In this document: positions 7,842 through 22,408 of the stretch, in pieces
Layout of the letters: each line of letters begins with the position of its first letter
How positions within the stretch are numbered: position 1 is the stretch's first letter
Assembly: GCA_027619225.1 (NCBI GenBank)
Contig: JAQCFW010000005.1
Coordinates: 1-64,000 of the forward strand
DNA length: 64,000 nucleotides
Reading direction: 5' to 3'
Source of the DNA: Bacteroidota bacterium
Lineage (GTDB): Bacteria > Bacteroidota > Bacteroidia > Flavobacteriales_D > Sanyastnellaceae
Notes under the pieces: generated by a model
Database searches by the model: none
What the model saw: the letters and a program-made list of their open reading frames with translations, nothing else
Told to the model about the DNA's origin: nothing
Made by a program: the position numbers and the translations under genes

Positions 7842-9974
7842 TTATTTTATTACCCAGGATATAGATCTTGATTTGCCTTCCGTAAGTATTACTACAAAGT
7901 ATATACCCTCACTTTTCATAGAAGCATCAAGCGTGAAGTCGTTTATCCCAATGGGCAGAATCCCTTCATGAACAAATTCAATTTCTCTACCTAAAGCATC
8001 GTAGACAGAAATTTTTGTGAATTCCGACCGAAAGCTCTTACAAGACAAGGTCGCTTCACCTTCCGATGGGTTAGGGAAGAGATTCCAGTCTGCTCCTAAT
8101 TGCCACTCATGCACTGAGAGCAAGGAACTGTCATAAGCAGTAATATTAATATTGTCGAGGTAGATGTCGTTCCCCAAGCGGCTTTCAAACTCAAACTGGA
8201 CTCGGAAGTGGGGAGTGAGATATTTGGGTTGGTCTAAAACTAAAATATATTCATTCCACTCCTCAGGCCCTGAAGGCACAAAAGGGTAATAATGTGGAGG
8301 AGCGGAAGGAAGGGTGGTAAACCCACGGTGCATCTTGCGCAGGTCCCAGTCATTGCCACAATCACCAGTAACGCTAACGCGCAAACGATCATCTGTATCG
8401 TCATCTTCTGAGGTCCCTTTGAAGCAGTATGCCCATTTATAGCTCACCGCAACTTGGTATGCCTCGGAAAGATCCATGGTGCTAGATCTAAGAAAATCCT
8501 TATTAAACTCAATGTCATTGCTCCAGTTGTTAAGGTGAAGTGAGTGTGATCCTGAATATGACGCCACAGTTGTCGCCTCCCAACCCCCATCAGAAATGGG
8601 GTCTTCTACAAACCACTCCGCAGAAGGGAATTCTGTAGATTCAAAACCTTGTACAGCTGGACTGTCCATCACTCCAGCTGGAAGCACTGTGATTAAAATT
8701 GGAGAAGAGGAAAGGGTTGAGTTGTTATTGCTTACGGTAAGAACCACTTCAAACACTCCCTCGGTATTAAAAGTATGATAGGTTATGTTATTTACTCCTT
8801 CTTCAGAACCAAAAAACACTGTGCCATCTGCAAAATCCCACTCCCATGTAATTACATCATGATAACTTTCATCTGTAAATAAAATACTGTCGCCCTTACA
8901 GATAACTTTTTCATCTACCGTGAATAACGACTCACACAGTATCATGTCGCCTTCAACACCTGTCGCAGCTAGATTTGAAGGTGTAGAAAGTTGATTCCGT
9001 TGGGCCACGGAAGAAAGGGCGGCGGTGCGAAGGCGAGACTTTTGGCCTTCAGTAAACATCTTACCACAGTAAGAGTACTCCATATAATTCTGAACATTAT
9101 CTAAAGAGCCACATGACTCTCCCTCCAAGCTACAAGAAGTCCATCCTTTACTATTCGGTGTGTCAGACACGTTGTCATCCTGATCACAGTTCTCCTGATC
9201 GCCGGGAGTATTAGAATTGCCCCAAAGGTGACGGAGGTTCAGCCAATGTCCAATTTCGTGTGTCAAGACCCTAGAACGGTAGTTGTTGCTGGTTCCTATC
9301 GAGCCAGTATACGAATCCTGAATTACAATACCATCAAGGTAAGCATCGTTAGAACTATTCACTGATCCGGGGTAATAGCTATAACCTGCTGCTCCACCAG
9401 CATCAGCGCAAACCCAAATATTTAAATATCTATTCCTCGGCCACTGAATGAGGAACTTCACTGCCTCATCACCAACGTATGTCTCCTGGCTAACAATTCT
9501 GTTAATTCCAGAATGGCACTCTCCATCTGGGTCTTTTCGCGCTAACTTAAACTCAATCTGAACGTCACCCGTTATATCGGAAAATGCACTTACAATTTCA
9601 TTTAAATCTGCATTAAGAGCATTGAAGTCACGGTTGACAACTTCGAGAGCATCGTGGATTTGGGCAGATGAGATATTCTCAACTCCGTTATTGTGAATCA
9701 CATGGAATACGACGGGTATCGTAATCACCTCATCTCTCTCACCTCCTCTATTTCGCTCTGCTATATACTGCGCTGTCTCTCTTTCTAATTGCTGGTCAGC
9801 TGCGGAGATATGTTGAAGCCTTTCTGGAGTCATTCCGAAAGCGCGCACGGTAGCCTCATAAATACCACATTTTTTAACCTCTTGAGCCGAGTTTAGAAAA
9901 GACGTAAATAAGAATAAACTTGCTAATAAAAATCGGCTCACAAAGTTGCGCGCTGTGAATATTGTGTCTGACAT
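7842..9974 (-). CDS. secreted M43 (cytophagalysin-like) zinc metalloprotease with PKD and type IX sorting domains
   Basis: A 710-aa exported protease. In order: signal peptide (about 1-30), propeptide-like region, M43 catalytic domain with zinc motif HEIGHWLNLRH (His239, Glu240, His243, His249) and Met-turn NYMEY (Met298), a PKD domain (about 350-435, with WEWDFADG), a galactose-binding or jelly-roll-like region (about 440-620), and a C-terminal type IX secretion sorting domain (about 630-710, with LFPNPSEGEATL and a final ISWVIK). It should be secreted or surface-attached and degrade extracellular protein. Metzincins often have Gly where this has Asn246, but Asn is common in Bacteroidota members. 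Its promoter element lies at 10006-10013. Confidence 0.93.
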   Translation of the reverse strand: MSDTIFTARNFVSRFLLASLFLFTSFLNSAQEVKKCGIYEATVRAFGMTPERLQHISAADQQLERETAQYIAERNRGGERDEVITIPVVFHVIHNNGVENISSAQIHDALEVVNRDFNALNADLNEIVSAFSDITGDVQIEFKLARKDPDGECHSGINRIVSQETYVGDEAVKFLIQWPRNRYLNIWVCADAGGAAGYSYYPGSVNSSNDAYLDGIVIQDSYTGSIGTSNNYRSRVLTHEIGHWLNLRHLWGNSNTPGDQENCDQDDNVSDTPNSKGWTSCSLEGESCGSLDNVQNYMEYSYCGKMFTEGQKSRLRTAALSSVAQRNQLSTPSNLAATGVEGDMILCESLFTVDEKVICKGDSILFTDESYHDVITWEWDFADGTVFFGSEEGVNNITYHTFNTEGVFEVVLTVSNNNSTLSSSPILITVLPAGVMDSPAVQGFESTEFPSAEWFVEDPISDGGWEATTVASYSGSHSLHLNNWSNDIEFNKDFLRSSTMDLSEAYQVAVSYKWAYCFKGTSEDDDTDDRLRVSVTGDCGNDWDLRKMHRGFTTLPSAPPHYYPFVPSGPEEWNEYILVLDQPKYLTPHFRVQFEFESRLGNDIYLDNINITAYDSSLLSVHEWQLGADWNLFPNPSEGEATLSCKSFRSEFTKISVYDALGREIEFVHEGILPIGINDFTLDASMKSEGIYFVVILTEGKSRSISWVIK

Positions 9975-10037: not shown

Positions 10038-10505
10038 TTAGTCGACTGTAGTCTCAAGTCTGAATCCTATATCTGTTACACCCTGTAATGGGTCTTGCCT
10101 CATTCCTTGAGTAACCCTCAAATTGTACCTCCCATCTATAGGGAACTCAAAATCCTCTTTGAAGGAAATTCTGTGATCTATCACAGTGCCTATTCCTGAG
10201 CCAAACCAGTTTCCTCTCTCATCAGCAAGGGTGCAACCTAGAGTGTCTCTTCTAGTCTTACCATTGGGAAATGTAAAGTCAAGAAACAAGTATAAATTGG
10301 AAAACGGGTAGATCTGGTTATGCCTTAAATCGACAAAAATAGAGTATCTAGAGTCCGTGTCTTTAACAGTCCATTCAAAGGATTTAGTGTCATCAGAGTA
10401 CCAACCCTCAGGATTCACTTCATGCGAATCGCTTGCTACAGGAAACTGACCACAAGATGCAATTAAAACTAAAATGAAGAGAAAAGCTCCAACACGAAAA
10501 ATCAT
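10038..10505 (-). CDS. gldH: gliding motility lipoprotein GldH
   Basis: A 155-aa lipoprotein (signal sequence and lipobox at Cys18, LIASCGQ) matching GldH, with the conserved YSIFVDLRHNQIYPFSNLYLF, RRDTLGCTLADERGNWFGSG and IDHRISFK segments (described here piecewise). GldH is needed for flavobacterial gliding and works with the GldK-N/type IX machinery at the cell envelope, though its exact role is unclear. Its presence agrees with the type IX signal on the adjacent protease. The start overlaps the ricT stop by 4 nt (ATGA), showing translational coupling in holB-ricT-gldH, a gene order usual in flavobacteria. Confidence 0.9.
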   Translation of the reverse strand: MIFRVGAFLFILVLIASCGQFPVASDSHEVNPEGWYSDDTKSFEWTVKDTDSRYSIFVDLRHNQIYPFSNLYLFLDFTFPNGKTRRDTLGCTLADERGNWFGSGIGTVIDHRISFKEDFEFPIDGRYNLRVTQGMRQDPLQGVTDIGFRLETTVD

Positions 10506-12914: not shown

Positions 12915-15392
12915 TTAGAGGGTCGCGTGAATCGCAATAAAAGCACCTCTACCCGGAGCCGAAATACCTGAAGAAAAGGTTTTATAATGCATGTCTAACA
13001 GATTCGTTAAGCCTATCTGTGCATGTATGTTCTTATAAATTTCGAAATGAGACTCTATGTTTAAGGTCCACCATGAAGGCGTGCCGGTTAACAATGCCTC
13101 TTGAGGATTGTCTGTACCGCCTGGACCATAGTCCTCAATACTTTTAACTCCATTGAATAAGACAAACCCTTCAATTGACCAATCCTTTTTGTAATATTCT
13201 AATGAGGTTCTACCAAACATAGGTGGAATATGTGAAATTGGATCCTGTGAAATAAGACGTGTGCCCTTCGTGAAATTAGCTACGCCATGGAAATTAAGAT
13301 TCGTTAATATTTGAGCGTTGATTTCAAATCTTGCGCCTTTAACAATGGCATTCCCTAAATTTTCATTTCGCTGAATTATCGCGTCTTCTCCATCAATAAA
13401 AATTTGCGATTCATTGTTTAATGTTGCAGCTACAGGTGAAATAAAATCTGCCCACAAACTTAAGAAAACGGCTGAATTTACGGATAGTCTTGGGGTAATG
13501 TCCCATGAAATACTCTCATCAAAACTGTAAATATATTCAGGCCTTAATGAGTCATTTGGGATGATAACATACCCTCCTTTTTCTCTGATTTTTGCTGCGT
13601 CATCTATGTTCGGGTGTCTAAATCCTGAAGACAGCGATGTGGTTGTTTTTGTTTTCAAAGAAAGTGGGACTTCGGCAGCAATGCTTCCGGTTAAGGCTCC
13701 GTTCGATGAATACAATTCATCAAATGGAAGCTCCAAGGCAGATGTTGGGATATAGGATGCGTTAATCGCTGAATGACTATACCGAACACCAAAATGATAA
13801 ATGTTTTCACCTAAGTTTCTTTTTGCAGAGGCAAATGAAGCCCAAGACAACATGTTGCTTCCTGCATTGGGATACCGGGTTAACAACTCTCCTCCAAATC
13901 CAGAATCAGCAACGGTCATGCCGCTAGGGTCTTCAGCACGCACCATTGATGTTACATCATTCCACTGACCATCTACACCCGCTTCGAACTTCCAACCATC
14001 TCCTCTAAAAGGCGAGGAAACCCAAACAGAAGACAGCGAAATCACGTCAACCAGCTCCTCCTGTATTTCTCTTAATGCTTCGCCAAATTGCCTTTTCTTT
14101 CTTGACTCACTTATGTTTTGGTATGCAAATGTTGTGTGGAGAGACCCAGGTATGCCTAGGTATTGCTCCCACCTAACAGCGGTCATCAACCTTTCCTGAG
14201 GGCCATAGTTCCACTCAGCCCATTTGAAACCTGAAGCTGATGTGTCATTTAGTTTATCCAACCTTGGAATATCTGAGCTTATGCTGTATTGGAAATTCGT
14301 TTCAATGGCTCCACCTGGGATGCCTACTCTTAACTTATGTAAAAAGTCCTTTTGCGAATACCCAGAGGGTGTTTGGACTGATGGATTCGGATTTTCTACA
14401 ATTGAATCCACACCATTTATTCTGTCCACATAAGAATAGATACCACCCCAAAGAGAATCACCATGGGCTCGCCATTCACCCATCTTTAAATCTCCAAAAC
14501 TACTTGAACTTATTGCTACTACAGAAGCCCATCGCTCCCCTCCTGCTTCAGCTGTGCCGTGAATATTAACGGAATTATTCACGCTTTTATATTGGGTAGA
14601 GACAAGGGCTGAAGAGTTGTATTCCGACTGTTTACTTCTAAATCTAGGTCTGAGAGTTGTAAAATGAACCACACCTCCTAAAGCATCACTACCAAATCTC
14701 ACACTACTTGGACCTAAGATAACTTGTACTTTTTCAAGAGAATTGGGGTCTATGGTAATGGCATTTTGAAGATGACCCGATCTATAAATCGCGTTATTCA
14801 TCCTTACTCCATCAATGACTAAAAGGATTCTGTTTGCCTCAAATCCTCTAAGAACTGGAGACCCTCCCCCTTGCTGACTTTGCTGAACGTGAACTTGTCC
14901 AGATTTCTGTAATAGCTCTGCAGTATTTCCAGGTGCCACTCCCTTACCAATTGATTCAACACCTAACAACTTTAACCCATGCGTATTACCAACATCAGGC
15001 ACAACATTCGAAATTATTTGGACCTCCTCTAACGAAAAAGGGCTTTCCTCCATTGCTATTGTTTGTGCTATTTGCTGGCCATGGATAATGAATACATCTT
15101 CATACCCCATGCTCCTAAGAAGCAATGTATCGCCTTTAGCAAACGTCGGGAAAATCACAAAGCCATCAAAATCTGAGATCACAGATTGTGACGTTGTCAA
15201 ATTGGTGACTGAAACAAAAGGAATTGGAATGGACCCATTCACTACTCTAATACTCGGTAAATGAAGAGTGTCCTTTTGGGCAAAGCAATAAAAAGTCGAC
15301 GAAAAAAAAGACATCAGAAAGATGACTAAACTTACAAGAACATTGATATTGATGTCTTTTTTAGGTTGCAAAAATTGTCTCCAGAACATCAT
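12915..15392 (-). CDS. TonB-dependent outer-membrane receptor
   Basis: An 825-aa outer-membrane transporter. It has a signal peptide (basic KK at 11-12, hydrophobic core, cut near Ala38), a carboxypeptidase-regulatory-like domain (about 45-125), a plug domain (about 140-255, with VLRGFEANRILLVIDGVRMNN and VRFGSDALGGVV segments) and a beta-barrel ending in an aromatic-rich terminal strand. The substrate is unknown; the plug resembles receptors often annotated as hemoglobin/siderophore type, which is only suggestive. The start lies 32 nt inside recO; later Met codons would lose the basic part of the signal peptide, so the overlap is probably real. Confidence 0.92.
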   Translation of the reverse strand: MMFWRQFLQPKKDININVLVSLVIFLMSFFSSTFYCFAQKDTLHLPSIRVVNGSIPIPFVSVTNLTTSQSVISDFDGFVIFPTFAKGDTLLLRSMGYEDVFIIHGQQIAQTIAMEESPFSLEEVQIISNVVPDVGNTHGLKLLGVESIGKGVAPGNTAELLQKSGQVHVQQSQQGGGSPVLRGFEANRILLVIDGVRMNNAIYRSGHLQNAITIDPNSLEKVQVILGPSSVRFGSDALGGVVHFTTLRPRFRSKQSEYNSSALVSTQYKSVNNSVNIHGTAEAGGERWASVVAISSSSFGDLKMGEWRAHGDSLWGGIYSYVDRINGVDSIVENPNPSVQTPSGYSQKDFLHKLRVGIPGGAIETNFQYSISSDIPRLDKLNDTSASGFKWAEWNYGPQERLMTAVRWEQYLGIPGSLHTTFAYQNISESRKKRQFGEALREIQEELVDVISLSSVWVSSPFRGDGWKFEAGVDGQWNDVTSMVRAEDPSGMTVADSGFGGELLTRYPNAGSNMLSWASFASAKRNLGENIYHFGVRYSHSAINASYIPTSALELPFDELYSSNGALTGSIAAEVPLSLKTKTTTSLSSGFRHPNIDDAAKIREKGGYVIIPNDSLRPEYIYSFDESISWDITPRLSVNSAVFLSLWADFISPVAATLNNESQIFIDGEDAIIQRNENLGNAIVKGARFEINAQILTNLNFHGVANFTKGTRLISQDPISHIPPMFGRTSLEYYKKDWSIEGFVLFNGVKSIEDYGPGGTDNPQEALLTGTPSWWTLNIESHFEIYKNIHAQIGLTNLLDMHYKTFSSGISAPGRGAFIAIHATL

Positions 15393-16098
15393 AACTTTTT
15401 ATTTCTCTTAAACCAGAATGATGAAGTTGAACGAACATGACCATGCCAAGAAGCAGTTCCTTTTTGTCTGACTTGGTTAACGATATGCCTTGCAATTGGT
15501 CAAAATCCATGCCAGATATAGCCATCAACAAAGACGCCAACTCAAAATTTAAGTAATGATCCTTCGCGGTCAAACTCATCTTAATTTCAGACCACTCTCC
15601 CGTATCTAAATTTAAACTATTTACGGCTCCCATATTTGTTCTATCGTACTCTTCTGGCATTAACCCCAAGGCATCAACCAGTCGAGACATGAAAAAAATA
15701 TGCAAGTTCGATACTGAAGTTTCCAACTCAATTAGATTTATGATGTCTATCATTAAGTCAAATACCTCAGGTAACGGGACCTCATCCTCTAATGACTTGT
15801 CCAATACTTCAGCTATAAAAAACGCTACGGAAGATCTCTTCGCATCGTTGAGTAAATTATTCGCCGGCAAACAGCGAGCGGCTTCTTTAAAGTTAGCCAA
15901 TCCGCCAGATTTTTTCCTTGTAAATCCAGACAACTCTACCACAGATAGTGGATGCCAGAGTGCTTTTTTAGATTTTTTTCCCGTCCTAACCCAAATCGGA
16001 ATTACTCCGTTTTCTTTGGTTAACACCTTTACCACCCTACTCGAGTCACTGTAGGTTACACTACCTATTACAACCGCTTGAATATCTACAGGTTCCAA
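15361..16098 (-). CDS. recO: DNA repair protein RecO
   Basis: A recombination mediator that helps RecR load RecA on SSB-coated DNA. The 245-aa protein has the N-terminal OB fold (VVIGSVTYSDSSRVVKVLT, LWHPLSVVEL) and a helical C-terminal domain (LHIFFMSRLVDALGLMP). The CxxC zinc finger of many RecO proteins is absent, as in Bacteroidota relatives. There is no ATG near the start; the only plausible start is TTG at 16096-16098, which directly follows the TAA of lspA-ispG in the same frame. Translation probably depends on reinitiation from that upstream gene. Confidence 0.88.
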   Translation of the reverse strand: MEPVDIQAVVIGSVTYSDSSRVVKVLTKENGVIPIWVRTGKKSKKALWHPLSVVELSGFTRKKSGGLANFKEAARCLPANNLLNDAKRSSVAFFIAEVLDKSLEDEVPLPEVFDLMIDIINLIELETSVSNLHIFFMSRLVDALGLMPEEYDRTNMGAVNSLNLDTGEWSEIKMSLTAKDHYLNFELASLLMAISGMDFDQLQGISLTKSDKKELLLGMVMFVQLHHSGLREIKSYDVLETIFAT

Positions 16099-18609
16099 TT
16101 ACGATAGCGATTCAGAAACATCAATCCAATCGCCCTCCTTTTTAATTAAATCTATCAGCGCTTCAACTCCTTCGATCTCGGGCACATTCTTCCTTACAAC
16201 CTCTTTTTCTTTATAAAGTGTAATCTTACCCACTCCTGTTCCTACATAACCGTAATCAGCATCCGCCATTTCTCCTGGGCCATTAACGATGCATCCCATA
16301 ATTCCAATCTTCAGACCTTTCAAATGACCTGTCGCCAATCTAATTTTTGCAGTTGTTTCCTCTAGGTCAAACAGTGTTCTTCCACAACTCGGGCAAGAAA
16401 TATATTCAGTCTGAGAAATCCTTGTTCTTGTCGCCTGCAAGATCCCGAAAGCAAGGTTAGTCCTATCTGAAAGACTTACTCCTTCACCTTCTACCCAAAC
16501 CCCATCTCCAAGACCATCAATCAATACACCTCCTAAATCCGTTGATTGATAAAGCGTAAATTCTTCCTTGGCCACGTTCTGCAGGTCCCTCTTTAATACA
16601 ACAGGCAGTCCTTCTCCCCCATTGTTTTCCACCTCCTCAACTGCCATTCTAAGATCCATCATCGCGTTCTCAGATGTGGTCTCTAAAATTAAAACCACGT
16701 CCTGTCTTACCACCAATCCTTCTAAAAACTGCTTAGATAAATCTGCTCTTCCCACCTTAATAAAATTCACTTTAGCGAAAGACTTTACGCCTTCCCACTC
16801 CGCTTTATCCCAAACAGGATAATGCCGCTCCACACCATCTGTACCCATTGCTTGAGACAACCAATCACCTCCATTCATCAACACCATTAAAGTTCCGGGC
16901 AGTGGAAAAGGTACAATTCTTGATCCTGAGAAAAGAACATCACAAGCTCTATCAGCAATATTCCATTTGTCATCTACTATAGAGTATCGATACCCCGCGC
17001 CTACAAGATTTGCATGAGTTATTTCTCCCTTTACTCTCAAACTAGAAATTACAACAGGTACGTTTTTAGCTCCAATTTTGCCAATCCCAAATGTTTTTCG
17101 CTTCGTGTACGTATATGGATCAATCGAGCTCACAAATTTACCATCTCCCAATTCTAATTCACTACGTTTTTTATATCTATCAACCAAAGCTCGAGCAACA
17201 GGAATCTCCGCTTCTGGAGATTCTGTTAACGACACCCTGATCGTATCTCCCACTCCTTCTTCAAGCAATGTTCCTATACCTACAGCAGATTTAATTCTAC
17301 CATCTTCTCCATCTCCAGCTTCCGTTACGCCAAGGTGAAGAGGATAGTTCATTCCTTCTTCATCCATTCTACTTACTAAAAGTCTATAAGCCTGCACCAT
17401 TACAAGTGTGTTCGAGGACTTCATAGAAATGACTAAGTCATAAAACTCACATCCCTCTGCGATGCGTAAAAATTCTATTGCACTTTCCACCATTCCAAGT
17501 GGAGAATCCCCATATCTGCTGGTAATTCTATCTGAAAGCGAACCGTGATTTGTCCCAATTCTTATTGTTCTTCCAAGTTCCTTACACTTTATTACTAAAG
17601 GAGTAAACTTTTCCTTTATTCTAATTAATTCCTCAGCGTAAGATTCGTCTGTGTACTCGTGAAAGGCGAACTTCTTTTTATCAGCATAATTACCTGGGTT
17701 CACCCTTACTTTTTCAACAAAATCCGCCGCTCTCAACGCGGCATTTGGCGTGAAGTGTATGTCAGCAACAATGGGTGTGTCTTTGCCCATTGCTCGAACT
17801 CCTTTAACAATATGCTCTAACGCGTCAGAGTCTTTAATACTTGGAGCGGTAAGGCGAACGAGTTCACTCCCCACATTAATCAAGCTTAAAGTTTGGTCAA
17901 TGCTCGCCTTAATATTCAGTGTATCTGTAGTCGTCATAGATTGAATACGTATGGGTGCATCACCCCCTAAGCTGAGGTTACCAACTTGTATTTTTCTAGA
18001 TTTTCTTCGCTGATGTCTTTTCTTGCGTTCTTGGAAAAATTTCTTTTGGTGTAAAATAATCCAAATAACTCCTATAGAAATAGCAGCATCAGCTATATTC
18101 CAAATCGGAGGAAAAACTTCTAATCCTCCTAAATGAAAAGGCATCCAAGATGGCCATTGGATCGTAAAATGAAACATGTCAACCACGTGCGCCATAAGCC
18201 AAGGTGCATAGCCATTTTCTACGTTAAAATCCGCGACAGTTCCCCAGCCAGAGTGTGAAAATAGTCGCCCGTAAACAGCACTGTCAATTATATTTCCTAT
18301 CGCACCAGCCCATATTAGAGCAACAGATCTAAGAAGTCCTGAATGCGCCTTTTCCCTTGTGAGTTTAAATAAGTAAATACCTATTCCAACAGATGCTATG
18401 AGACGGAAAGTTGTTAGAACTAATTTTCCAGCTACTCCTGGCAATGCCCAACCGAAGGCCATGCCTTCGTTTTCAATAAACTGTAATTCTAGTAAACCAG
18501 GAATAAACTCAACTCTCTCACCAATAGTGAAATTGAGCTTTATATAAATCTTTATGATTTGGTCTGCCAACAAAAGGGGCATGACCCACTCTAAAATGAG
18601 CTTTCGCAT
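16099..18609 (-). CDS. lspA-ispG: fused lipoprotein signal peptidase (LspA) and 4-hydroxy-3-methylbut-2-enyl diphosphate synthase (IspG)
   Basis: One 836-aa frame covers two usually separate enzymes. Residues 1 to about 190 are signal peptidase II: about four membrane spans and both catalytic aspartates, Asp109 (GNIIDS) and Asp174 (NIADA). Residues about 204-836 are IspG of the long, three-domain type: TIM barrel starting at QVGNLSLGGDAP, an inserted domain, and the [4Fe-4S] ligands Cys739, Cys742, Cys773 and Glu780. The linker (about 188-207) is very basic. LspA cleaves prolipoproteins in the inner membrane; IspG makes HMBPP from MEcPP in the cytoplasm, so the IspG half would be membrane-tethered. 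I see no internal frame break or obvious internal Met start at the junction. Confidence 0.9.
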   Translation of the reverse strand: MRKLILEWVMPLLLADQIIKIYIKLNFTIGERVEFIPGLLELQFIENEGMAFGWALPGVAGKLVLTTFRLIASVGIGIYLFKLTREKAHSGLLRSVALIWAGAIGNIIDSAVYGRLFSHSGWGTVADFNVENGYAPWLMAHVVDMFHFTIQWPSWMPFHLGGLEVFPPIWNIADAAISIGVIWIILHQKKFFQERKKRHQRRKSRKIQVGNLSLGGDAPIRIQSMTTTDTLNIKASIDQTLSLINVGSELVRLTAPSIKDSDALEHIVKGVRAMGKDTPIVADIHFTPNAALRAADFVEKVRVNPGNYADKKKFAFHEYTDESYAEELIRIKEKFTPLVIKCKELGRTIRIGTNHGSLSDRITSRYGDSPLGMVESAIEFLRIAEGCEFYDLVISMKSSNTLVMVQAYRLLVSRMDEEGMNYPLHLGVTEAGDGEDGRIKSAVGIGTLLEEGVGDTIRVSLTESPEAEIPVARALVDRYKKRSELELGDGKFVSSIDPYTYTKRKTFGIGKIGAKNVPVVISSLRVKGEITHANLVGAGYRYSIVDDKWNIADRACDVLFSGSRIVPFPLPGTLMVLMNGGDWLSQAMGTDGVERHYPVWDKAEWEGVKSFAKVNFIKVGRADLSKQFLEGLVVRQDVVLILETTSENAMMDLRMAVEEVENNGGEGLPVVLKRDLQNVAKEEFTLYQSTDLGGVLIDGLGDGVWVEGEGVSLSDRTNLAFGILQATRTRISQTEYISCPSCGRTLFDLEETTAKIRLATGHLKGLKIGIMGCIVNGPGEMADADYGYVGTGVGKITLYKEKEVVRKNVPEIEGVEALIDLIKKEGDWIDVSESLS

Positions 18610-18626
18610 AATTTTATTAAAACGGT

Positions 18627-18998
18627 TTACTGTCTCTCTTTGGCCTCCATTGACAGAGTCGCATGAGGGACAAGACGCAAACGAGCTTTTGGAATTAATT
18701 TTCCTGTGACTCTACAAATTCCGTAAGTTTTATTCTTAATTCTTAAGAGAGCATTTTCCAGATTTTGAATAAACTTCTCCTGCCGTCCTGCCAATGCAGA
18801 CGTTTCTTCACGACTCATCGTCTCAGAACCATCTTCCATCATCTTAAATGTTGGAGATGTATCCTCGGTTGTGTTGTCGTCTTTGTGAGACAATGAAGCT
18901 TGCAATTGGTCTAAATCTTCGCGTGCGATTTCCAATTTCTTCTCAATGAGTTCCATGAATTCCTTGAGATCTGATTCTGAATATTTTGTTTCTGCCAT
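18627..18998 (-). CDS. DksA/TraR-family protein with only one cysteine
   Basis: A 123-aa protein with an N-terminal helical hairpin (about 1-85) and a C-terminal DksA-like globular end (YGICRVTGKLIPKARL). It matches the Bacteroidota DksA/TraR family. The canonical four-cysteine zinc finger is reduced to a single Cys, so it probably does not bind zinc through the usual site. DksA relatives enter the RNA polymerase secondary channel and modulate transcription; that role here is inferred. It lies between ileS (10 nt upstream) and lspA-ispG (17 nt downstream) on the same strand, a gene order common in this phylum. Confidence 0.88.
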   Translation of the reverse strand: MAETKYSESDLKEFMELIEKKLEIAREDLDQLQASLSHKDDNTTEDTSPTFKMMEDGSETMSREETSALAGRQEKFIQNLENALLRIKNKTYGICRVTGKLIPKARLRLVPHATLSMEAKERQ

Positions 18999-19008
18999 GA
19001 CTGCGTTT

Positions 19009-22000
19009 TTAATATTTTACAACTTGAACCGTGACGAACAAGCCGTCTTCTAATTCAATTTTAACTCCCTTAGCGCCATTCTTCCACTCGACGCTCTCTG
19101 CTAAGGTTTGAGTTCGAATATAGGCCAAATTTTCTTGTAATTGACTACTTATTTTCTCTTCTGCATTTATCACAAGACTTATTCTATCTGTGACTTCTAA
19201 ACCTATGTCTTTCCTCACGTTTTGAACTCTATTCACAAGCTCTCTCGACAGACCCTCCGCCCTTAAGTGAGCATCAATTGTAATGTCAAGAGCAACCGTT
19301 AACCCGCCTTCACTGGACACGATCCAACCGGGGATGTCTTCTGTGGAGATTTGTACGTCCGTAACAACAATATCTACTTCACCCTGACCATCATCCGGAG
19401 TGATTGTAAGTTTCCCTTCTCTCTCTAATTCATCTGTAGCTTCAACAGGTAAGGCATTTATTGCTGCTGCAATTGACTTCATGCGTTTCCCATATCTTGG
19501 TCCGAGAGCTTTGAAGTCTGGCTTAATACTCTTTACGATTCCACCTCCATCACGGATGATTTCAAGCTCTTTTACATTGACTTCCGAACGTATTAAATCT
19601 TCAATTGCAGATAACCTTTCCGCATAGATATCATCCAATACAGGAACCATAATTCTTCTTAAAGGCTGTCTAACACGAATTCTCTCACGCTTTCTAAGAC
19701 TTAAAACTTGAGAGCACAATTTCCTAGCTAGCTCCATTCTGATTTCGAGTTCCGAATCGACAATTGAAATATCTGAATTCGGGAAGTTCGCGAGGTGAAC
19801 AGAATTTTCAGCGCCGTCTCTAGATCCTCCAAGGCCTTCGTTTAAATCTCGGTACAATCTATCCATAAAAAATGGAGCAATGGGTGAGCCCAATATTGCC
19901 GTTGTTCTAAGACAAGTAACAAGAGTTTGGTATGCTGAAAGCTTATCCTCATTCATTGAACCCTTCCAAAATCTCTGTCTGTTTAGACGAACGTACCAGT
20001 TACTTAGCTCATCAATAACGAAGCTTTGTAACAATCTCGCAGCACGGGTCGGCTCTAATTCCTCATATGCTTTATTCACTTCTTGCGTTACTGTATGCAT
20101 CCGTGAAAGAATCCATCGATCAATTTCTGGAAGCGCTTGGTGAGGAATTGTTGATTCATCCCCTTTCAATCCATCAATATTTGCGTAAAGCGCAAAGAAG
20201 TTGAATGTATTGTGAAGTGTCCCGAAAAATTTTCTTGTTACTTCAGCTATTCCCTCTAAATCGAATTTTAAATTATCCCATGGTTGGGCATTGCTGATCA
20301 TATACCAACGTGTAGCATCAGGACCAAACTTTTCTAGTGTAGAAAATGGATCAACTGCGTTGCCCAATCGCTTAGACATCTTCACACCATTTTTATCTAA
20401 AACCAACCCATTTGAAACTACATTTTTATATGCAACTTTATCGAATACCATCGTAGAAATGGCATGTAGAGTATAGAACCAGCCTCTTGTTTGGTCTACT
20501 CCTTCAGCAATAAAATCAGCTGGATACGCTTCTTCATTATCGACTTGCTCTTTGTTTTCGAACGGATAGTGCCATTGCGCGTATGGCATTGACCCAGAAT
20601 CAAACCAAACGTCAATCAAATCACTCTCACGCATCATCGCAGAACCATTATCCGACTTCAAAATAATGGTGTCTACAACGTGTTTGTGGAGGTCGAAGAA
20701 TTCATAGTTGGACTTTGACATGTCACCCGGCTTGAAATCAGCCAGAGGGTTTTCTTTCATTAACCCAGCTTCCACAGCTTCAGCGCATCGAATGGACAAC
20801 TCTTCAACAGAACCTATACAGACTTCCTCAGAACCGTCTTCAGTTCGCCAAATAGGAATTGGAATCCCCCAGAAACGCGAGCGGCTTAAATTCCAATCAT
20901 TCAGGTTTTCAAGCCATTTCCCAAATCTTCCACTGCCCGTACTTTCTGGCTTCCAGTTAATCGTTTTATTTAGCTCAGTCATTCTCTCTTTCTTAGCTGT
21001 TGCTTTAACAAACCAAGAATCAAGTGGAAAGTATAAAATAGGTTTATCGGTTCTCCAACAATGGGGGTAAGAGTGAGAATACTTTTCTACTTTAAAGGCC
21101 AGTCCACGAGTTTTTAAATCTATCGCAATCTCAACATCAACCGATTTCTCGGGAGCCTCACCATCTTTATAGTATTCATTCTTCACGAAACGACCAGGAA
21201 ATGGACCGTACCCTTCGCGCAATCTGCCTTGCATATCTACAAGTGGCACACCGTGACCCGATCCATCATCAACGAGCATTGGCGGAACCCCTGCGGCTTT
21301 AGCAACCAAGGCATCATCTGCTCCAAATGTTGGTGCTGTGTGTACTATTCCCGTACCGTCCTCTGTTGTAACAAAGTCTCCAGAAATAACTCTAAACGCT
21401 TGGTCAGGGTCTGCCATAGGCTGAGCCCAATCAATCAACTGCGCATACTTCATCCCCACCAATTCGGCCCCCTTACACTTTCCTAACACTTCGTAATCGG
21501 GACCTTTGTGGAACTGTTTCTCTACAAGTTTTTCAGCAAGCACAACTAGACCATCAGTCCCTGTGTATTTGTTCGTTGTTCTAACAATTCTATAATCGAT
21601 TTTTGCTCCGACAGTTAACGCCGTATTTGAAGGCAATGTCCAAGGTGTTGTCGTCCATGCAAGGAAGTATAGAGGCAATTCCGAAGGCAAATTAGCGCCC
21701 TTGCACATCGCTTTTAACTTCATCGAACTCACATCATCAGCTTTGAATTGGGCAACAATCGTTGTGTCCATAACATCGCGATAAGTCCCCGGCTGATTCA
21801 GTTCATGTGAACTTAACCCCGTTCCAGCCATAGGACTATAGGGCTGGATTGTATACCCCTTATAAATAAGATCTTTCTTATACAATTGAGATAACAGCCA
21901 CCAAACAGATTCGATATATTTATTCTCGTAAGTAACATATGGAGCTTCCATATCTACCCAATAGCCCATTTTTTTAGTTAAGCTATTCCAAACTCCAGTG

Positions 22001-22386
22001 TGTTTCATCACCGCTTTCCTGCAGGCGTTGTTATACTCTTCAACTGAGATCTTAGTCCCAATATCTTCTTTCGTAATCCCCAGTTCTTTTTCAACCCCGA
22101 GTTCAACAGGTAGTCCGTGAGTATCCCATCCCGCTTTTCTTTCTACTCTTTTTCCTTTAAGAGTAGCATACCTACAGAAAATATCCTTAATGGCACGGCC
22201 CATTACATGGTGAATACCAGGCATCCCGTTTGCTGAAGGCGGACCTTCGTAGAAAACATATGTGTTGTCTACGGGGCGAGAATCTATGCTCGCCTGAAAT
22301 GTGTTTTCGCGCTCCCACACCTCCAGGGTTTCTTTAGCTAAACCAGGAAGATCTAATGGGCCGCGTTCTGGGAATCCGTTCGACAT
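19009..22386 (-). CDS. ileS: isoleucyl-tRNA synthetase
   Basis: Charges tRNA-Ile in the cytoplasm. At 1125 aa it is the long form, with the HIGH-type signature in GMPGIHHVMG, GWDTHGLPVE, the editing (CP1) domain including TTPWTLPSNTAL, the GVDQTRGWFYTL segment, KMSKR, and an anticodon-binding C-terminus. GWDTHGLPVE and KMSKR resemble the eukaryote-like type 2 enzymes; that class is often less mupirocin-sensitive, which is family knowledge rather than something visible here. I chose the ATG at 22386; a TTG one codon earlier is less likely. First gene of a probable ileS-dksA-lspA/ispG-recO unit. Confidence 0.96.
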   Translation of the reverse strand: MSNGFPERGPLDLPGLAKETLEVWERENTFQASIDSRPVDNTYVFYEGPPSANGMPGIHHVMGRAIKDIFCRYATLKGKRVERKAGWDTHGLPVELGVEKELGITKEDIGTKISVEEYNNACRKAVMKHTGVWNSLTKKMGYWVDMEAPYVTYENKYIESVWWLLSQLYKKDLIYKGYTIQPYSPMAGTGLSSHELNQPGTYRDVMDTTIVAQFKADDVSSMKLKAMCKGANLPSELPLYFLAWTTTPWTLPSNTALTVGAKIDYRIVRTTNKYTGTDGLVVLAEKLVEKQFHKGPDYEVLGKCKGAELVGMKYAQLIDWAQPMADPDQAFRVISGDFVTTEDGTGIVHTAPTFGADDALVAKAAGVPPMLVDDGSGHGVPLVDMQGRLREGYGPFPGRFVKNEYYKDGEAPEKSVDVEIAIDLKTRGLAFKVEKYSHSYPHCWRTDKPILYFPLDSWFVKATAKKERMTELNKTINWKPESTGSGRFGKWLENLNDWNLSRSRFWGIPIPIWRTEDGSEEVCIGSVEELSIRCAEAVEAGLMKENPLADFKPGDMSKSNYEFFDLHKHVVDTIILKSDNGSAMMRESDLIDVWFDSGSMPYAQWHYPFENKEQVDNEEAYPADFIAEGVDQTRGWFYTLHAISTMVFDKVAYKNVVSNGLVLDKNGVKMSKRLGNAVDPFSTLEKFGPDATRWYMISNAQPWDNLKFDLEGIAEVTRKFFGTLHNTFNFFALYANIDGLKGDESTIPHQALPEIDRWILSRMHTVTQEVNKAYEELEPTRAARLLQSFVIDELSNWYVRLNRQRFWKGSMNEDKLSAYQTLVTCLRTTAILGSPIAPFFMDRLYRDLNEGLGGSRDGAENSVHLANFPNSDISIVDSELEIRMELARKLCSQVLSLRKRERIRVRQPLRRIMVPVLDDIYAERLSAIEDLIRSEVNVKELEIIRDGGGIVKSIKPDFKALGPRYGKRMKSIAAAINALPVEATDELEREGKLTITPDDGQGEVDIVVTDVQISTEDIPGWIVSSEGGLTVALDITIDAHLRAEGLSRELVNRVQNVRKDIGLEVTDRISLVINAEEKISSQLQENLAYIRTQTLAESVEWKNGAKGVKIELEDGLFVTVQVVKY

Positions 22387-22408
22387 CAAAATCTACAATT
22401 TAATGTCG

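Follow-up and report, generated by a model that had tools for sequence, protein, structure and literature searches.

The genes for lipoprotein signal peptidase (lspA) and the isoprenoid enzyme of the MEP pathway IspG (ispG) are joined in one uninterrupted frame of 836 codons plus stop, with an ATG start and a TAA stop, on the minus strand at positions 16099 to 18609 of the window, by which we mean the whole 64,000-nucleotide stretch of Bacteroidota DNA that was analysed. We think it quite probable that this is a genuine composite gene, limited to one lineage, which would give a single LspA-IspG protein with both enzymes at work and IspG tethered to the membrane, and that the join is tolerated and not required. 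One chain would hold two essential enzymes whose pathways and compartments are unrelated and which are both antibacterial targets; if it is made as one protein, IspG would work while anchored to the membrane.

The LspA part, residues 1 to about 187 (18049 to 18609, minus strand), is matched by Pfam Peptidase_A8 (PF01252) over residues 11-187 with 104.9 bits against a cut-off of 25 and by the NCBIfam lipoprotein signal peptidase profile PRK14788 with 202.3 bits, which passes the cut-off of 200, and the LspA structures 6ryo, 9emz and 5dir align with it; TIGR00077 (lspA) gives 52.4 bits and stays under its cut-off of 73.95. Asp109 in the motif GNIID and Asp174 in the motif NIAD, which we take to be the catalytic aspartates of LspA, are found in all six fused proteins of the genus described below. 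A Lys/Arg-rich linker of about residues 188-203 (18001 to 18048, minus strand), in which there is no in-frame ATG, GTG or TTG, leads into the IspG part, about residues 204-836 (16102 to 18000, minus strand), with its barrel, insert and Fe-S domains. This part is matched by Pfam GcpE (PF04551) with 398.1 bits against a cut-off of 32 in two stretches, the best being residues 205-483, and by NCBIfam TIGR00612 (ispG_gcpE) with 450.7 bits, which passes the cut-off of 280.25, and PRK02048, the profile of long IspG, matches residues 199-829 with 711.6 bits, under its cut-off of 886. The solved two-domain IspG 3noy aligns to residues 199-475 and 719-822 of the fused protein and therefore the stretch between them, about residues 484-718 (16456 to 17160, minus strand; the boundary is approximate), is the insert of the long form of IspG, which we take to be the A* domain of the three-domain enzyme. 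Three cysteines and one glutamate, Cys739, Cys742, Cys773 and Glu780, presumably the ligands of the Fe-S cluster, are present in the IspG part; this check of IspG residues gave an IspG for all but L031 and L109 of 80 loci. A sequence-only reading had claimed that LspA is joined to full-length IspG in one frame, with these aspartates, cysteines and glutamate in place and a basic linker between the halves, and the open reading frame list, Pfam and NCBIfam agree with it on the frame, the residues are all at the positions it gave and the linker is indeed basic and lies after the last membrane helix.

In its profile, its two aspartates and its four long predicted helices the first half is like known LspA (signal peptidase II), and it is unlike known LspA in carrying a 650-residue enzyme on its C-terminus. 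The second half is like the long three-domain form of IspG/GcpE, the solved two-domain structures of which family include 3noy and 4s38, in its full length, its Fe-S ligands and its insert domain, and this long form is the usual one in Bacteroidota. Unlike known IspG, however, it has no start codon of its own, its N-terminus runs on from LspA and it falls below the PRK02048 cut-off. When the fused protein was searched against the assembly of the source genome (2.03 Mb, 97.3% complete), the single match for either gene was this locus. IspH and the C-terminal domain of Dxr each gave one match in the same assembly and therefore the MEP pathway appears to be present and in use in the source genome.

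An AlphaFold2 model of the fused protein, built on an alignment of 36 sequences, had a mean pLDDT of 82.7 and a pTM of 0.75. The four transmembrane helices expected of LspA are matched by four long predicted helices at residues 2-26, 59-85, 90-119 and 172-186. The linker was modelled at low confidence, with pLDDT below 50 at residues 194-197, and the IspG part, for which pLDDT was mostly above 85, opens with predicted strands at 207-209, 212-214 and 221-225. LspA resides in the inner membrane and its C-terminus is known to face the cytoplasm, and because of this topology we infer that IspG would hang at the cytoplasmic face of the inner membrane on a short, basic and probably flexible linker.

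The genus of the source genome comprises 14 genomes, of which 13 gave a match to the fused protein. A single open frame of 805 to 862 codons runs through both parts in six of the 14 (G000, G009, G005, G004, G003 and G008), and the proteins of the five other fused species, each from its own assembly, are 86 to 63% identical to that of the window. The seven remaining genomes with a match are not cleanly fused. In G001, G002, G007, G011 and G013 the two genes are separate, on the same strand and in different frames, and overlap by 8 nt. In G006, whose IspG is 91% identical, a deletion of 1 nt together with substitutions at the junction, compared with G000 and G009, makes an ATGA stop/start with an overlap of 4 nt. 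In G012 an in-frame TAA (locus L006, 2098-2100) stands between the parts and there is no ATG, GTG or TTG before the conserved methionine of the motif IQSM, only near-cognate codons; this TAA could reflect a sequencing error, readthrough or near-cognate reinitiation. The genome without a match, G010, is 70% complete. Within the genus, then, what sets joined forms apart from split ones is either small indels or a stop codon, and neither the length nor the sequence of the linker is conserved between the fused groups. The split relatives resemble the stop/start-overlapping pairs treated in the accessible part of PMC10666635, according to which neighbouring bacterial genes often overlap by 4 nt and are thereby coupled in translation; unlike such pairs, lspA and ispG have become a single frame in six species.

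The search for the junction across Bacteroidota that had been proposed with the sequence-only reading was run, and outside the genus no fused form was found among the matches listed. In the family 109 of 114 genomes were matched and in the order 223 of 299 at a strict threshold, and among the matches listed none reaches into LspA; in the phylum 141 of 395 genomes were matched and no match outside the genus extends into LspA. The match lists were sorted by E-value, so that a fused protein should rank high. Long frames in G113 (1076 codons), G116 (943), G120 (943), G114 (816) and G015 (757) were considered as other fusions of ispG and rejected, the extra frame being antisense over a divergent recO. 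Upstream of ispG at loci L117, L118, L119 and L120, in G+C-rich relatives, very long frames run antisense to recO and mimic a fusion in stop-to-stop counts. The long ispG frames of G132, G300, G283 and G347 were likewise set aside, as no LspA was detected in the stretch by tblastn at E up to 0.01, and locus L090, where the match begins at query residue 124, carries a normal IspG and no LspA in its vicinity.

How the two genes came to lie head to tail can be read from the relatives. In all 38 of the genomes outside the genus with listed matches to both on one contig within 3 kb (counted by eye, and including G135), lspA and ispG are convergent, that is, tail to tail; in G030 they share a contig and a strand with about 7.7 kb between them, and in G026 they are on different contigs. 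Eight genomes of two genera (G034, G015, G113, G116, G120 and G114; G036 and G017) have, along the strand of lspA, ileS, dksA and lspA; ispG comes next in the opposite orientation, and after it recO and a TonB receptor gene, these two being ordered and oriented as they are in the window. The window and locus L031 have the order of these eight sister-genus genomes with ispG turned round. In a tree of IspG for which seven genomes from other families served as outgroup, the convergent genera g2, g6, g7, g13 and g16 branch deeper, outside the genus; several of the deep supports are only 54-63, and the split between those genera and the group that holds this genus has a support of 100. Since the convergent order is found in these deeper genera it is likely to be the older state, and since ispG occupies the same place on the opposite strand in the sister genera, its in-place inversion preceded any join. 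The loss of a stop as a sufficient origin is rejected on the same ground. The earlier account, of an ispG downstream of lspA followed by loss of the stop, was thus incomplete, as an in-place inversion came first and small indels and stop changes afterwards. Two loci outside the genus deserve mention in their own right. At about 3390-3440 of L019 (G015) the convergent tails are so close that the match of the fused query crosses the lspA stop into the antisense of ispG, and at 1-2694 of L122 (G135) the matches to lspA and to ispG are each spread over two or more frames, as though the draft held frameshift errors or decayed copies.

A four-gene tree of 1080 columns and 23 genomes, whose supports were read before re-rooting, gave 100/100 to the clades {G003, G008, G012}, {G004, G005}, the five split genomes and {G000, G006, G009}; the five split genomes are sister to {G000, G006, G009} with 96.7/97, and G000 groups with G006 with 93.8/94. 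At face value the joined or split state has changed at least four times on this tree. As G006 and G012 are draft genomes, sequencing errors could account for their states; the number of changes falls to three if the TAA of G012 is an error and to two if G006 is as well. The probability of the fused state at the ancestor of the genus was 0.49-0.79 depending on coding and model, and both histories stand, one early fusion that was split three times or several fusions. The sequence of events that we propose would begin with an ancestor that had ileS, dksA, lspA, ispG on the opposite strand, and recO; ispG would have been inverted in place to lie head to tail behind lspA in a very compact array, and, where the two ends touch, small indels and altered stops would then have switched the pair between joined and split several times. 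The genus lays out these steps from convergent neighbours through in-place inversion, head-to-tail overlap and join to a renewed split. The general process of gene fusion and fission in prokaryotes (PMC11237513 and PMC12803068, for instance) likewise involves adjacent genes that are joined, with relatives that are split; compared with gene fusion and fission in general, the inversion of a single gene before the join is clearly readable at lspA-ispG. Literature searches for an LspA-IspG fusion turned up no description of one, the paper they listed (PMC3814617) being unrelated, and we regard the pairing of these domains as new and the process behind it as known. The accessible parts of PMC8835842, in which YdfD inhibits IspG, and of PMC3711429, on frame transitions, have no bearing on this pair.

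Between the source genome and its nearest fused relative (G000-G009), dN/dS was 0.084 for LspA, 0.059 for IspG and 0.107 for the linker of 17 codons. For G004-G005 it was 0.057 for LspA and 0.076 for IspG, with the linker saturated, and for G003-G008 it was 0.25 for LspA, with IspG and the linker saturated. Judged from these ratios both halves are kept by purifying selection, in line with the claim of the sequence-only reading that both are intact. That the join itself is adaptive is a different matter and seems unlikely to us. Membrane anchoring might help IspG by holding it near its electron donor or the downstream prenyl-lipid enzymes, or the join might fix its amount to lipoprotein processing, and the frame is still open in species that are only 63-66% identical. 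A membrane link of IspG is also not absurd, given that in the accessible part of PMC12005517 the level of IspG in E. coli is dependent on FtsH as well as on the HflK-HflC complex of the membrane, although anchoring of IspG is not demonstrated there. However, five close relatives keep two overlapping genes, the species with the 91% identical IspG is split by one deleted base, the linkers of the fused groups vary, and among the matches listed for the family, order and phylum there is no fused form elsewhere. Because near relatives keep two genes and the linkers differ in length and sequence, we favour a composite gene whose join is tolerated and not needed; the join may be slightly convenient, in that it would give equal amounts of both enzymes and need no separate start. 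We are doubtful of the stronger proposal that a working membrane-anchored IspG has been kept by selection in several species and that the genus offers a natural experiment, the pair having been switched at least four times by one-base changes. If it were true, the fitness value of an enzyme fusion could be read by comparing sister species. Whether fusions are selected or merely tolerated in compact genomes becomes a testable question at this one locus.

Whether one protein or two would be made turns on the codons around the junction. In the window gene there is no in-frame ATG, GTG or TTG from residue 166 to Met225, which is the first methionine codon of the IspG part, and a start at Met225 would remove the predicted strands 207-209 and 212-214 and nearly all of 221-225. 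In G008 none is found from the last helix to the IQSM methionine and only ATA and ATT occur there, as in the window gene. The absence of an internal ATG, GTG or TTG start makes one tethered polypeptide likely for the window gene. Two proteins could still arise if translation began internally, at the near-cognate ATA207 in the window or, for certain relatives, at an ATG, GTG or TTG, or if the chain were cut in the basic linker, which is probably exposed given its low confidence in the model. In-frame starts do lie near the junction in G009 (ATG196), G005 (ATG218 and TTG222), G004 (TTG225) and G003 (GTG205 and GTG216), so that, from the codons, a separate IspG is possible in these four, and the TAA of G012 would demand reinitiation or readthrough. 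As the window gene and G008 have none of these starts between the last helix and the IQSM methionine, we think it improbable that two proteins are the product. A stop or frameshift missed in assembly is hardly credible, for although all the genomes compared are drafts and a single base can switch the state, the open frame recurs in six species that were assembled independently and whose linkers differ, five of them besides that of the window.

The single LspA-IspG gene that we favour lies in a tightly packed neighbourhood. Upstream of it on the minus strand are a dksA-like gene (18627 to 18998; PF01258) and, beyond that, ileS (19009 to 22389; PF00133 and others), and downstream is recO (15361 to 16098, minus strand; open reading frame list, Pfam and NCBIfam), with a TTG start as listed. 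Among 38 pairs of same-strand neighbours in the window the median gap is 10 nt and 7 overlap by 4 nt; these gaps were taken from 53 of 58 open reading frames, five opposite-strand frames nested in genes having been dropped by hand. That a fusion should arise from small changes where two genes touch is in keeping with so compact a genome. It was also observed that recO starts in the frame of ispG right after the ispG stop (window 16098-16101) with zero spacing, the TTG being its first listed start, and the loss of the stop at this boundary would bring a third gene into the fusion. Elsewhere in the window, positions 7842-9974 encode a secreted M43-type metalloprotease with a PKD domain and a type IX secretion sorting tail, which adjoins gldH (10038-10505).
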